NCBI GenBank assembly: GCA_900319075.1 | Contig: ONMZ01000007.1 | Span: 1 to 51,207, forward strand | Length of the DNA: 51,207 nucleotides | From: an uncultured Eubacteriales bacterium | Lineage (GTDB): Bacteria > Bacillota > Clostridia > Oscillospirales > Ruminococcaceae | Direction: 5' to 3' | In this document: piece after piece, positions 1 to 51,207 of the stretch | How positions within the stretch are numbered: position 1 is the first letter of the stretch | Layout of the letters: each line of letters opens with the position of its first letter | The notes under the pieces: generated by a model | What the model was told of the DNA's origin: nothing | Seen by the model: only the letters and a program-made list of their open reading frames with translations | Database searches by the model: none | Program-made: the position numbers and the translations under genes

Positions 1-20
1 CCTTTCCTAAAAAGGGCTTG

Positions 21-275
21 CGGGTCGAGGGCGGCGCCCTCGTCGCTCTCCGCAGAGAGCGAAATCCCCCTACATCGTGCGCTCCGCAAGGGGTGAATTC
101 CAAAACAGTCCGGTGGACTGTTTTGGAAGAGGGAAAGCCCTGAAAGAGAGGGCTTTCCCTTACCCTGTGGTAACGTCGGTTGCCTCAAGCCGCCTGCGAA
201 AAGGCGGCTTGAATATCAAATGTATTTTCCTTAGGGGGCTTTCCGATCGCCCCCTATAACCCCTTCGGGCACATA
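21..275 (+). repeat. Composite hairpin repeat, copy A
   Basis: This gene-free stretch is a chain of hairpins. They are: 26-42 (arms cgagggc/gccctcg), 43-62 (tcgctctc/gagagcga, loop cgca), 98-128 (14-bp arms ttccaaaacagtcc/ggactgttttggaa, loop ggt), 130-160 (12-bp arms agggaaagccct/agggctttccct) and 186-211 (caagccgcct/aggcggcttg). A tail at about 229-275 contains ttagggggctttcc and accccttcgggcac. The same modules recur in the same order at 26098-26335, and in reverse at 28396-28675 and 50985-51207. The short open frame inside it (77-259) is a by-product of the repeat. The left boundary may lie outside the window. Confidence 0.85.
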
Positions 276-370
276 TCTTAAAGTTTGTAATAAACTAAAT
301 TCTGATTTATCGCAGGAACACGAGGGTATTTGACTTACAACACTTGACACACAAAGGAGATAATGCCGAT

Positions 371-2257
371 ATGTCTACGGCAAAGACAATAGAACATTTC
401 GATGTGATAGTTGTGGGGGCAGGTCACGCAGGGTGTGAGGCTGCCTTGGCGGCGGCTCGTTTGGGTATGAAGACCGCTCTTTTTACCATAACCCTTGACT
501 GCGTTGCGAATATGCCATGTAACCCCTCCATCGGCGGCACAGCAAAGGGTCACCTTGTGCGTGAGATAGACGCCTTAGGCGGCGAGATGGGAAAAGCGGC
601 TGACAAAACGATGATACAAAGCCGTATGCTCAACAGAGGAAAGGGCCCTGCGGTACACTCCCTTCGGGCGCAGATAGACCGGACGGCTTACCACGACCTT
701 ATGAAAAACACTGTGGAAAAACAGGAAAACCTGTATTTGAAACAGGGCGAGATAACCCATATACTTTTTGAAAACGGCTCCGTTTGCGGAGTAAAAACCA
801 TGCTTGGGACGACTTACCGCTGCAAGGCGGCCATAATCGCCAGCGGAACATACCTTGGGGGAGTTATCCATGTGGGCAGCGTGTCTTACCCCAGTGGTCC
901 GGACAGCATAAAGCCTGCGCTTGCGCTTACCCAAAGCCTTATTGACGCAGGTGTGGAGATGCGCCGTTTCAAGACGGGCACCCCTGCAAGGGTGCACAAG
1001 CGCTCGATAGACTTTGACAAGCTTGAAGAGCAGTCAGGCGATGAGGAGATAACCCCATTTTCCTTTTCCACAAAAGGCGGACTTAAAAACCAGGTCAAGT
1101 GCTATGTTGCATATACAAACGAAAAAACGCACAAAATAATAAAGGATAATATACACCTTTCCCCCATCTATTCGGGAAGGATAAACGCCATCGGTCCACG
1201 CTACTGTCCCTCAATAGAGGACAAGATAATGCGCTTTTCCGACAAGCCCCGTCACCAGCTTTTTATTGAGCCTATGGGACTTGGTACACAGGAATACTAT
1301 TTACAGGGAATGAGCTCATCTCTGCCGGAATTTGTCCAGCTGGAGTTTTTACACTCCATAAAAGGGCTGGAGCACGTGGAGATAATGCGTAACGCCTATG
1401 CCATCGAGTACGATTGCTGCGACCCTACCCAGCTGCTTGCGACCCTTGAGTTCAAAAAACTAAAAGGGCTTTACGGCGCAGGGCAGTTCAACGGCACCTC
1501 CGGCTACGAGGAGGCTGCGGCACAGGGACTGGTTGCCGGCATAAACGCCGCATTAAAAATAAAAGGCGAGCCGCCCCTTGTGCTTGACAGGGCAAGCTCA
1601 TACATCGGCACGCTGATAGACGATCTGGTAACAAAGGGCTGCTCAGACCCTTACAGGATGCTGACCTCCCGCAGCGAGTACAGACTTTTGCTGCGCCAGG
1701 ATAACGCAGACATAAGGCTGCTTCCCCTGGGGCACAGGGTGGGGCTTGTAAGCGACGAGGCATATGAGCACCTTTTAAGAAAAAACGAGCTTATTGAGCA
1801 GGAGATAGAAAGAGTCAAGCACGTTAATCTTGCTCCGGGCAAGGAGATAAACGATCTGCTGGAAAGCGTATGCACAGACCCGCTTACCAACGGGATAAAG
1901 CTTTCACAGCTGATAAAGCGGCCGGGTGTTACATACGATATGCTTGCACCCTTTGACAAAAACCGCCCCGAGCTTGATCGTGAGGTCACCGAGCAGGTGG
2001 AGCTTCAGATAAAGTACGAGGGATATATCAAGATCCAGCTGGAACAGGTGGAGGCTATGCGAAAGCTGGAAAGCAAGGCTCTGCCCACAGACATCGACTA
2101 CGCTCAGGTGGGAAGTCTGCGGCTTGAGGCAGTGGAAAAGCTCAATAAGATAAAACCCCTGTCGGTTGGACAGGCAAGCCGTATAAGCGGCGTAAACCCT
2201 GCGGACGTAGGCGTTTTGCTGGTATGGCTGGAACAGCAGGGCAGAGAGAAAAAATAA
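371..2257 (+). CDS. mnmG: tRNA uridine 5-carboxymethylaminomethyl modification enzyme MnmG
   Basis: This is the FAD-dependent subunit of the MnmE-MnmG complex, which installs the cmnm5 group on wobble U34 of certain tRNAs. The protein is 628 residues, the normal length. The N-terminal dinucleotide-binding motif GAGHAG sits at residues 16-21, followed by the family block NPSIGGTAKGHLVREIDALG. A conserved GLYGAGQFNGTSGYEEAAAQG segment lies in the C-terminal half. I chose ATG 371 because AAAGGAGA at 353-360 lies 10 bases upstream; an in-frame TTG at 344 has no such site. rsmG follows on the same strand, as in many bacteria. MnmE, the obligate partner, is not in the window. The gene points towards the origin, so it is head-on to replication. 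Identification is firm. Confidence 0.97.
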   Translation: MSTAKTIEHFDVIVVGAGHAGCEAALAAARLGMKTALFTITLDCVANMPCNPSIGGTAKGHLVREIDALGGEMGKAADKTMIQSRMLNRGKGPAVHSLRAQIDRTAYHDLMKNTVEKQENLYLKQGEITHILFENGSVCGVKTMLGTTYRCKAAIIASGTYLGGVIHVGSVSYPSGPDSIKPALALTQSLIDAGVEMRRFKTGTPARVHKRSIDFDKLEEQSGDEEITPFSFSTKGGLKNQVKCYVAYTNEKTHKIIKDNIHLSPIYSGRINAIGPRYCPSIEDKIMRFSDKPRHQLFIEPMGLGTQEYYLQGMSSSLPEFVQLEFLHSIKGLEHVEIMRNAYAIEYDCCDPTQLLATLEFKKLKGLYGAGQFNGTSGYEEAAAQGLVAGINAALKIKGEPPLVLDRASSYIGTLIDDLVTKGCSDPYRMLTSRSEYRLLLRQDNADIRLLPLGHRVGLVSDEAYEHLLRKNELIEQEIERVKHVNLAPGKEINDLLESVCTDPLTNGIKLSQLIKRPGVTYDMLAPFDKNRPELDREVTEQVELQIKYEGYIKIQLEQVEAMRKLESKALPTDIDYAQVGSLRLEAVEKLNKIKPLSVGQASRISGVNPADVGVLLVWLEQQGREKK

Positions 2258-25393: not shown

Positions 25394-26068
25394 TTATTTT
25401 TCGGTTATAAGGTGGTACCCTTCGGCAAGCTCTCCTGTGAACTTGTCACGGATAATATCCTGCTGCTGCTTGTTGAGAAGTCTTTTGCAAAGCACATAAA
25501 GTGTTTCTTTTTCGATGATGATAATAAACATCTCATCATTTTCGATGACCTCAACGGTGTCGTTGTTTTTGTCGCTGTTGTCACCGAGAAAAACACGCCT
25601 TGGCTTTATGGGCACATAGTCCGGGGACTGTTTTTCCTCCTCGGAAACGATAGTTTCGATCATAAAACCGCTTTCATAGAGAGAAAATCTATATCTGTCG
25701 TCCTCAAGCTCTTTAAGCGCCCTTACAAGATATTTTCTTATCCTTACGCTGTTGTACCAGGTAAGTGCGATGACCACAAGGCAAATAGCCAGCAGCACAT
25801 AATTAAGATAGCCGCCCGGATATTTGATTATTGACACGATAAAGGCTGCTGAGACCACCGCAAAGGCAGCGGTGACTTTCCAGTTATGGGGATAGACAAA
25901 TTTTTTCTGATAGGCACGGAAAGCTCTGTCCTCCTCATCGTTTTTAACATCGTAATCAACCACCAGCATAGGCTGTTCATCGAAGCTGTCGGCATCTTTT
26001 ATAGCCTTTGCATCGTATTCTTCAAGCTCTTTTTCCTCAAAGCTTTTAAAATCGTTTTTCTCCGCCAT
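25394..26068 (-). CDS. YcxB-like membrane protein
   Basis: The 224-residue protein has an acidic cytoplasmic N terminus of about 60 residues. Two membrane segments follow (roughly 67-83 and 88-104). The C-terminal domain resembles the YcxB-like domain (RFSLYESGFMIET, later MFIIIIEKETLYVLCKRLL). Such proteins are common in Clostridia but have no known function. The ATG has GAGGAAA upstream. It lies between gyrB and gyrA, 47 bases before the gyrA start, and may be co-transcribed with gyrA. Confidence 0.75.
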   Translation of the reverse strand: MAEKNDFKSFEEKELEEYDAKAIKDADSFDEQPMLVVDYDVKNDEEDRAFRAYQKKFVYPHNWKVTAAFAVVSAAFIVSIIKYPGGYLNYVLLAICLVVIALTWYNSVRIRKYLVRALKELEDDRYRFSLYESGFMIETIVSEEEKQSPDYVPIKPRRVFLGDNSDKNNDTVEVIENDEMFIIIIEKETLYVLCKRLLNKQQQDIIRDKFTGELAEGYHLITEK

Positions 26069-26097
26069 TAATTATTTCCTCTTTCTTTAAAAAACCG

Positions 26098-26335
26098 TTA
26101 TAACAGGTTTTTTCGTCCACCTTTTTCTCGTAAAAAAAGGTGGCAGGTCGAGGGCAGCGCCCTCGTCGCTGTCCGCAGACAGCGAAATCTCCTTTCATTA
26201 GGCGCTCCGCAAAGGGTGAATTTCAAAACAGTCCGGTGGACTGTTTTGAAAGAGGGAACGCCCTGCAAGAGAGGGCGTTCCATAATGAAAAACCTTCTCT
26301 GTTTTTCCTCAAACCCTTCAGGGTTTGAATGCCGT
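26098..26335 (+). repeat. Composite hairpin repeat, copy B
   Basis: The gap just downstream of gyrB holds the same hairpin chain as copy A, in the same orientation. Members are 26149-26165 (cgagggc/gccctcg), 26166-26185 (tcgctgtc/gacagcga, loop cgca) and 26221-26251 (14-bp arms tttcaaaacagtcc/ggactgttttgaaa, loop ggt). The last is about 26255-26281 (ggaacgccct/agggcgttcc, loop gcaagag). Differences from copy A fall in pairs that keep base pairing. The left edge carries ataacaggtttttt, also found, inverted, at the edges of copies C and D. Confidence 0.85.
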
Positions 26336-26338
26336 GAT

Positions 26339-28312
<1,974 letters not shown>

Positions 28313-28342
28313 TTATATATCAAGTCATTTGTTTATTTACAA

Positions 28343-28351
28343 ATTATATCA
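28343..28351 (-). promoter_or_regulatory. Extended -10 promoter of gyrB
   Basis: Minus-strand TGATATAAT: a perfect TATAAT (28343-28348) with the TG extension. No good -35 hexamer lies 17 bases upstream, as is common for extended -10 promoters. Confidence 0.6.
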
Positions 28352-28395
28352 CCTTTTTTGCTATGCCTTCTGGCAGGCAAAGAATTAGAATTATA

Positions 28396-28675
28396 TTCAG
28401 GGGACGCCCTCTCTTTCAGGGCTCCCCTCTTAAAAAATAGTCCACCGGACTATTTTGGAGCGTGCAGCTTGCTGTTCGCTTGTTCACGTCCCTTGCGGAG
28501 CGCCTGAAAGCTAGAGATTCCGCTCTCTGCGGAGAGCGGCAAGGGCTCTGCCCTTGACCGCACGCTATCCGCAGGATAGTGTAGCTTTCTTTTGCGAGAA
28601 AGAAGCCAGAGAATGGCTTTGCCATTCTCTAAAGTAACCGTGGTAACGGTTACTTTAGGACACAAAAAACCTGTT
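28396..28675 (-). repeat. Composite hairpin repeat, copy C (longest hairpin series)
   Basis: The gap between gyrB and remB (28292-28733) is filled by a reversed copy. Hairpins: about 28440-28456 (aatagtcc/ggactatt), 28520-28539 (ccgctctc/gagagcgg) and 28540-28556 (caagggc/gcccttg). Then 28565-28579 (ctatcc/ggatag), 28608-28630 (agagaatggc/gccattctct, loop ttt) and 28629-28658 (13-bp arms ctaaagtaaccgt/acggttactttag). The end carries aaaaaacctgttataat, matching inverted the edge of copy B. No gene is supported here. Confidence 0.82.
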
Positions 28676-28733
28676 ATAATTTTGACAGATAATAATACTT
28701 TTTTGTTATTTCTAAAGGGTCCTTCCCAATTAT

Positions 28734-28994
28734 TTATTGAGAAAACTTTTTGTGTCGCTTCAAAAGTGTAGAGCAGGCGAGCTGTGAGATATACACTGTT
28801 TCCGTCAGGTCTTTATCAAGGCACACCACGAAGCTTTTTGGCATTTCATAGGAACAGCTTATCACCCTTGCATTTTTTGACGCATGGCTGAGATACTGTT
28901 TTGTTATCTGGGACACAGACGAATTTTCTATATCAAATATCCCGATTATATCCCGCTCGTTTACCATATAGTCGTTGCCAAGATGGAGATACAT
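28734..28994 (-). CDS. remB: Extracellular matrix regulator RemB (DUF370)
   Basis: The 86-residue protein is a RemA/RemB (DUF370) family member: MYLHLGNDYMVNERDIIGIFD and later FVVCLDKDLTETVYISQLACSTLLKR. RemA-type proteins are DNA-binding regulators of matrix genes in Bacillus. RemB (YaaB) occupies this same place between recF and gyrB there. Its ATG overlaps the recF stop by one base (TGATG), showing coupling. Confidence 0.9.
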   Translation of the reverse strand: MYLHLGNDYMVNERDIIGIFDIENSSVSQITKQYLSHASKNARVISCSYEMPKSFVVCLDKDLTETVYISQLACSTLLKRHKKFSQ

Positions 28995-50968: not shown

Positions 50969-50984
50969 CCTAATAAGACAAATC

Positions 50985-51207
50985 AGAGTTTGTGCACCAT
51001 GTCAGAGAGTGTGCCCGAAGGGGTTTTAGGTGGGCATAAAACCGTAAACGGTTTTGGAAAGCCCCCTAAACAAGAGCCATTCAATCCACCTTTTTGCAGG
51101 CGGATTGCGGAAAAAGAGTTTTGCGCTTTTCAAAGGGGCACGCCCTCTCTTGCAGGGCGTCCCCTCTTTCAAAACAGTCCACCGGACTGTTTTGAAATTC
51201 ACCCCTT
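50985..51207 (-). repeat. Composite hairpin repeat, copy D
   Basis: Read on the minus strand this is the same module order as copy A. It contains gtgcccgaaggggt and ggaaagccccctaa (about 51011-51068), and an imperfect caatcc/ggattg hairpin (about 51085-51108). Next is an aggggcacgccct/agggcgtcccct hairpin (about 51135-51165), then the palindrome tttcaaaacagtcc-acc-ggactgttttgaaa (51167-51197), ending with aattcacccctt. The element probably continues beyond the window. No gene is seen. Confidence 0.83.

Follow-up and report, generated by a model that had tools for sequence, protein, structure and literature searches.

Covarying chains of five hairpins recur between genes in Ruminococcus and related clostridia, probably as parts of non-autonomous mobile elements

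The stretch of DNA analyzed here (the window; 51,207 nucleotides) carries four copies of an intergenic repeat that probably belongs to an order-wide family of non-autonomous mobile elements, whose shells are moved in trans and whose hairpins are kept as a folded strand. What is conserved is a row of five hairpins, always in the order A, B, C, E, F, together with their loops and linkers, and this unit is apparently gene-free. The chain would travel within short inverted-repeat elements or form one of their ends, with transposases from other elements moving these shells, and the hairpins would be retained for the work of one folded strand, probably plus, either as single-stranded DNA during transposition or as an RNA of the element. 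The same chain is carried by several different inverted-repeat shells, one having IS1182-like ends and a duplicated host hairpin (often a terminator) on its two sides and another having TA at its outer edges; the window copies carry shells other than the IS1182-like one. The repeat family is newly described, we found no named family for the hairpin chain in open-licence papers, and the element may have a host function.

Copy 1 (1–310, plus strand) has lost its left part at the contig end and reaches the right inverted repeat of its shell (296–310), with mnmG downstream. Its plus-strand hairpins B (cgagggc/gccctcg, 26–42), C (tcgctctc cgca gagagcga, 43–62), E (a 14-bp palindrome with a triloop, 98–128), and F (ggaaagccct/agggctttcc, 132–158) are followed by an additional 3′ hairpin, G (tcaagccgcc/ggcggcttga, 185–212, plus strand), which lies outside the modelled core. 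Copy 2 (26100–26328, plus strand) is located between the 3′ end of gyrB and the next gene; it begins with ATAACAGGTTTTTT and runs, on the plus strand, through hairpins A (26117–26143), B (26149–26165), C (26167–26184, with a CGCA tetraloop), E (26221–26251), and F (26255–26281) to a final hairpin, tcaaaccc/gggtttga. Copy 3 (28396–28681, minus strand; core 28399–28557) lies upstream of gyrB, copies 2 and 3 flanking this gene, one on each side. A stretch is inserted in its D region, and two additional hairpin modules (28608–28657, minus strand) lie close to its 5′ end on that strand, similar ones being found by eye, reversed, at the same site in the congener G006. Copy 4 (50980–51207, minus strand; core part 51135–51207) is cut by the contig end, its shell inverted repeat beginning near 50980, and hairpins E and F with what comes after them are all that is present. 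Copies 1 and 4 abut the two contig ends, and since 12 of the 25 places in the same genome lie within 30 bases of a contig end, these ends are probably assembly breaks in a multi-copy repeat; the family seems to break assemblies of gut and rumen clostridia. Owing to the contig ends, copies 1 and 4 show one shell end each, and copies 2 and 3 show a left end only. No duplicated flanking hairpin was found at any of the four copies, and no target-site duplication was seen at copies 2 and 3. We also noted that copy 3 has at its 3′ end a promoter-like match (28419–28390, minus strand; 10 of 12) directed at gyrB; five promoter-like sites were found in 25950–28850, compared to 2.5 in shuffles, and none in window positions 1–420.

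All four copies and every stem quoted in the earlier note are present in the sequence, and a covariance model matches all four: on the plus strand copy 2 (26148–26283, 160 bits) and copy 1 (25–160, 158 bits), and on the minus strand copy 3 (28399–28557, 98 bits) and copy 4 (51135–51207, 89 bits, 5′ side cut), the training set of 42 sequences having included copies 1–3 and not copy 4. The claim that the copies share one ordered chain of hairpins holds for all four, with the amendment that copies 3 and 4 lie on the minus strand and that copy 4 is partial. Similarly, the claim that stems differ by matched substitutions stands in the main, as each quoted paired change is present and most differences are paired, but some are unpaired; uncompensated changes affect the outer pairs of hairpin E and a single base of F in copy 3, and F contains one extra base in copy 4.

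That the folded form is what is kept, as the earlier note had proposed, is borne out both genome-wide and order-wide. Across 193 unique cores, partial ones included, Watson–Crick pairs fill 95.2% of the cells of helix A, 93.6% of B, 95.2% of C, 97.9% of E, and 92.6% of F, while helix D (the ccc...ggg stretch) is weak at 61.4%. With all helices pooled, 7767 of 8482 cells are Watson–Crick, compared to 28–42% with slid partners. Pairing in alignment A2, which covers helices B, C, E, and F in 42 diverse copies, reaches 93.0% of cells, compared to 82.5% in shuffles and 35–57% in slid controls, the structure being derived from copy 2, itself a row of the alignment, and so favored over its slid versions. 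The covariation first read from four copies also holds statistically, with two-sided changes in 27 of 38 pairs (14.1 in shuffles; 0 of 500 shuffles as high) and in 171 cells (50.6 in shuffles). Uncompensated stem changes, which the earlier note held would speak against its reading, do occur: on a genus tree of 137 cores, 201 of 397 inferred departures from a Watson–Crick state end in a non-Watson–Crick one, many of these being rare and some in helix F not. The hairpins keep their order in 20 stretches that come from five other families (by eye; L346 is cut on the left). The loop of hairpin C is CGCA in 19 of these and CGAA in the remaining one, a lead like AAAGTTTT is usual, and about half have GGTGA ahead of hairpin E, while the sequences of stems E and F may be wholly different. 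We read the element as one whose fold is under constraint even as its letters vary. In two loci (L065 and L157), the loops of core hairpins F and C contain additional sequence, hairpin-like by eye, as may arise if hairpins are insertion targets.

The element is widespread in gut and rumen clostridia, namely Ruminococcus and its relatives. In the genome to which the window belongs (G000; 2.26 Mb, 58 contigs, 87% complete), copy 1 as the query returned 38 rows, of which 25 are places with an E value of 2e-16 or better; the other 13 rows are weaker, and in the majority the palindrome of hairpin E matches its own other strand. The copies at these 25 places are apparently dispersed, intergenic, short, and non-coding. 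With another copy from the same genome as the query, 15 of 29 genomes of the genus were positive, including its own (14 of 28 congeners), and 10 of 20 among good-quality genomes. An exact core pattern was found in at least 118 stretches in the genomes of named species; among 80 listed titles are those of isolates (Ruminococcus flavefaciens XPD3002, MA2007, and ND2009 and Ruminococcus sp. FC2018) and of many metagenome-assembled genomes of Ruminococcus, Oscillospiraceae, and Clostridia, and it is these 80 of at least 118 loci that were included in the alignments for the 193-core Watson–Crick shares, the genus tree, the gene context, and the paired double changes. The search of relatives with the covariance model (42 copies; helices B, C, E, and F) found the family, at an E value of 1e-4 or better, in at least 62 of 297 genomes and 33 of 126 genera of its own family and in at least 44 of 394 genomes and 27 of 169 genera of the order (own included), up to 8 or 11 candidates per genome having been scored under strict filters. 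The 44 order-level positives comprise 11 in the same family and 33 in seven other families; 27 of them, in six families and with 17 outside the family of the window, reach an E value of 1e-8 or better; f7 and f13, two of the eight families, gave weaker matches only. Copy 1 matched no phage record, and the exact core pattern had no match in viral contigs. One contig titled Alistipes (L217) bears the core with hairpins B to F; this record may be mislabelled or mixed.

Differences between genomes at a single site are seen on both sides of gyrB, which we compared between the window and 20 congener stretches, the 3′ site of G008 falling outside the coverage. At the 3′ site, an element of the copy 2 type, antisense to gyrB, is present in G000, G021, and G022; the site is filled in the opposite orientation in G028, holds other repeat DNA in G006, and is empty (a short spacer) in the close relatives G016 and G020, with short spacers also in more distant congeners among the matches listed. 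Given that this site is filled, reversed, or empty among close genomes, we interpret the repeat as a non-autonomous mobile element. At the 5′ site, the core is present in G000 only, among the matches listed, and G006, G008, G021, G022, and G028 hold a different multi-hairpin repeat (by eye). This second repeat, of the ggggaaacccttttggagaagggttatccccc type by eye, was noted at the gyrB 5′ site in five loci (L266, L267, L268, L271, and L285) and also within AATCAGAATTTA shells in four (L383, L384, L385, and L387).

Three kinds of inverted repeat surround the core in the genome of the window. The first, AATAACAGGTTTTT, has both ends in L014; the second, ATAAATCAGAATTTA, has both ends in L021 and L003 and one end at window copies 1 and 4; and the third, CAGTGTCAATATAGAAG, has both ends in L025 and one end in L007 and others. 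Overall, terminal inverted repeats with both ends seen were recorded in L014, L021, L025, L003, L070, and L312. With at most one mismatch, the repeat of the second kind has 28 occurrences in G000 and 118 in G028, while a control pattern for it was absent from all eight genomes, and 14 fetched stretches have its ends 112 to 579 bases apart without the core. Tc1/IS630-type insertions have TA at both outer edges. We noted the same in 12 of the 14 core-less and 5 of 5 core-bearing stretches, thus in 17 of 19 AATCAGAATTTA shells in all, a count biased by the TA contained in the search pattern that led to most of these loci. L025 sits inside a split hairpin, the arms of which now lie on either side (by eye). 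Larger arrangements were also present: inverted pairs of cores occur in G091, G183, and G302 (L403, L406, and L411), L312 forms a palindrome of ~600 bases whose long outer ends match each other, and in L325 (611–1356) and L227 (2810–3555) two inverted cores surround a 102-codon open frame with no Pfam match, such inverted double cores implying that the chain can serve as both ends of a larger unit. As separate observations, the congener G016 contains core-less elements of ~112–196 bases with AATCAGAATTTA ends, most with internal gaatagtgaatag runs (L377–L382 and L388–L390), and L386 (G006) has 579 bases between AATCAGAATTTG-type ends, without the core, and may carry a gene.

A small part of the family has IS1182-like ends. 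In G012 and other genomes, the element has TCAG..TGT.GAAAAA-like ends and a copy of a host hairpin on each side. In a set of 250 flank pairs, which were only partly cleared of near-duplicates and include some genomes from two collections, 26 rows had direct repeats at the flanks scoring at least 15. A duplicated hairpin is present at 13 loci among these (L044, L069, L070, L072, L078, L172, L175, L231, L252, L259, L326, L335, and L336), in 13 different sequences, compared to 0 of 400 mismatched flanks; it is absent in 237 of the 250 pairs. These 13 units measure 260–356 bases including both hairpins, the right end reads TTTTT.GACA..CTG or near it in 12 of them (by eye, the exception being L259), and the right hairpin copy runs into a T tract, terminator-like, in eight (by eye). 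Such relatives between duplicated host hairpins hint at the mode of spread. For the IS1182-shell copy in G012, no relative had both flanks together as an empty site, and the duplication of the hairpin is therefore read from the flanks only.

Genes matching the IS1182 model NF033551 were found in 25 of 197 genomes of the order. Of 30 IS1182-family loci fetched, five (L349, L350, L351, L354, and L355) have similar ends and the same hairpin on both sides (by eye), in two (L347 and L348) the hairpins differ from one side to the other, and the remaining ones have other ends or none that we found. IS1182 models had no match in the 87% complete genome of the window. PF13751, which is found in IS1182-type transposases, is present in 9 of 29 genomes of the genus, comprising 2 of 15 carriers of the element and 7 of 14 non-carriers, a distribution contrary to a simple IS1182 link inside the genus; the link rests on the ends and the duplicated hairpins. 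A composite pattern of IS1182-type ends plus the core matched 2 of 29 genomes, the match in G015 being unlike the element, and was set aside as too strict. One shell resembles the IS1182 family (IS1272 and kin) in that its ends, of the TCAG.CTGTCGAAAAA kind, adjoin host hairpins. IS1272 is reported to insert at stem-loops, several of which are terminators, and in reported IS1272 and TnSha1 insertions the stem-loop is removed or deleted in part, with no duplication (PMC4923244, PMC5678879), while the legend of a model figure gives stem-loop duplication at both ends as a possible outcome (PMC5678879, Fig. 13). Unlike in those IS1272 and TnSha1 insertions, the hairpin is duplicated here and the unit is without a transposase. 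The present loci supply natural data on hairpin use of the IS1182 type, duplication being otherwise, in these passages on IS1272, a model outcome and not data.

The balance of G–U over A–C mismatches in the stems bears on whether the hairpins act as a folded strand, RNA or single-stranded DNA, or simply record a mutational process. In the order-wide alignment A3 (100 loci supplied, 172 matches, 150 aligned, 111 rows), G–U occupies 69 cells and A–C 19, and departures from a Watson–Crick state, inferred on an order-wide tree, comprise 278 to another Watson–Crick pair, 48 to G–U, 14 to A–C, and 68 to other mismatches; the ratio of 48:14 compares with 1.29:1 predicted by unpaired columns (p = 7e-4), in an alignment that is fitted to the structure and leans to G–U by construction. 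Among unique hairpins, G–U exceeds A–C by 58 to 26 (p = 6e-4 if they were independent, which they are not), hairpin E contributing 36 to 14 and the other three being individually non-significant. On the genus tree of 137 cores, where the alignment is not structure-fitted, the corresponding changes are 196 to another Watson–Crick pair, 61 to G–U, 49 to A–C, and 91 to other mismatches, and the G–U excess is unclear. In unpaired columns of this tree, C>T (0.052, compared to 0.034 for G>A) and T>C (0.051, compared to 0.034 for A>G) both exceed their complementary changes, so their net effect is small, and with all four transitions counted, a strand bias in mutation does not cancel the G–U excess of the order-wide alignment. 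A folded plus strand, as RNA or as single-stranded DNA, thus receives modest support and is favored. A structured RNA, with the plus strand transcribed and folded as a small RNA or as a segment stabilizing, processing, or attenuating neighboring transcripts, is a real possibility toward which we lean less than halfway: the order-wide covariation with conserved loops and linkers and the G–U excesses order-wide and among unique hairpins would suit it, but a folded single strand of DNA predicts the same excess, the supporting alignment leans to G–U by its fitting, the genus tree gives 61:49, and the orientation of copies to genes is nearly even. Moreover, positions 1–420 lack a promoter-like site, one at the 3′ end of copy 3 is directed at gyrB, and Rfam offers no family. 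A match to a known RNA family had been named beforehand as contrary to the earlier reading; the window had no Rfam match at the gathering score, and in 10 loci none was above it, with two sub-threshold matches to a leader family. We consider it improbable that the matched changes are mutational, template switching between arms (quasi-palindrome correction) keeping the palindromes perfect with no role for selection. Paired double transversions do equal double transitions (97 and 99, with 379 and 355 in unpaired columns; rough counts, the tree being built from short, possibly recombining repeats), where two independent steps should, by our reasoning, favor transitions; yet arm correction predicts no strand bias, contrary to the order-wide G–U excess, and alone does not explain a conserved order and conserved loops amid rewritten stems in other families. 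These copies are a good system for asking what lies behind covariation in bacterial repeats: an RNA function, a folded single strand of DNA, or mutation from arm to arm.

Two further readings concern what keeps or moves the copies. A crude open-frame scan called both neighbors for 105 copies, of which 47 overlap a frame of at least 80 codons, taken as chance. Of these 105 copies, 38 lie sense and 31 antisense to a codirectional pair, 28 between convergent genes, and 8 between divergent genes. The surplus of convergent over divergent sites, and the location of some shells at terminators, would fit a host insulator or terminator module whose hairpins stop or buffer transcription at gene ends and whose copies are retained for that. 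We regard such a module as distinctly improbable, given that sites vary between close species, that the removal of copies from promoters could by itself deplete the sites between divergent genes, and that terminator-like sites show no excess in the window regions with copies 1–3 (0 compared to 0.6, and 4 compared to 3.5, in shuffles). REP/BIME and REPIN elements are mosaics of extragenic palindromes. The present family is similar in forming high-copy intergenic palindromes in mosaics, and one Y1_Tnp gene is present in the genome of the window; nevertheless, movement by a RAYT or other Y1 transposase seems very improbable, as 8 of 15 carriers (own included) have Y1_Tnp and so do 8 of 14 non-carriers, while the gene was not found in many-copy carriers such as G012, G013, G020, and G027, and in the genome of the window its flanks are without the hairpins (by eye). 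Its presence does not track the element, and Y1/RAYT was rejected as the motor; the family differs from REP/BIME/REPIN in this respect and in its longer fixed chain. Bacillus cereus bcr repeats and the enterobacterial ERIC and RU repeats are intergenic repeats with strong predicted folds, as here, but belong to other hosts.

Bacterial MITEs are also among the known classes close to this family. A match to a MITE had likewise been named beforehand as contrary to the earlier reading, and the copies do behave like MITEs, being short, apparently non-coding, dispersed, and intergenic, with inverted-repeat shells, empty and filled sites, and, in one shell, ends resembling those of a full insertion sequence, while the literature search noted above returned no named family. 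They differ from MITEs in that a five-hairpin core keeps its order across families and sits in several unlike shells and in that clear target duplication is missing in most copies. A rather unlikely variant of our reading is that of a structure-first element, in which the five-hairpin chain persists across the order with its folded form rather than its sequence as the unit of selection, changing shells and with them transposon ends, while hairpin-seeking transposases that target the chain replace or enlarge single hairpins and so rewrite the stems without loss of the chain. For non-autonomous mobile elements moved in trans, the reading that we prefer, no autonomous element bearing the core was found (10 frames near or between cores, none a transposase by Pfam), and no autonomous relative with the same ends was found for the window shells, the IS1182-type shell having similar ends. 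The Y1_Tnp gene in the genome of the window (L031, 1443–1938), which we presume to be IS200-like, lies inside an apparently longer coding region. Finally, in L056 and L062, an open frame directly follows hairpin F of one G013 copy and may, by eye, resemble an IS3-type OrfA.
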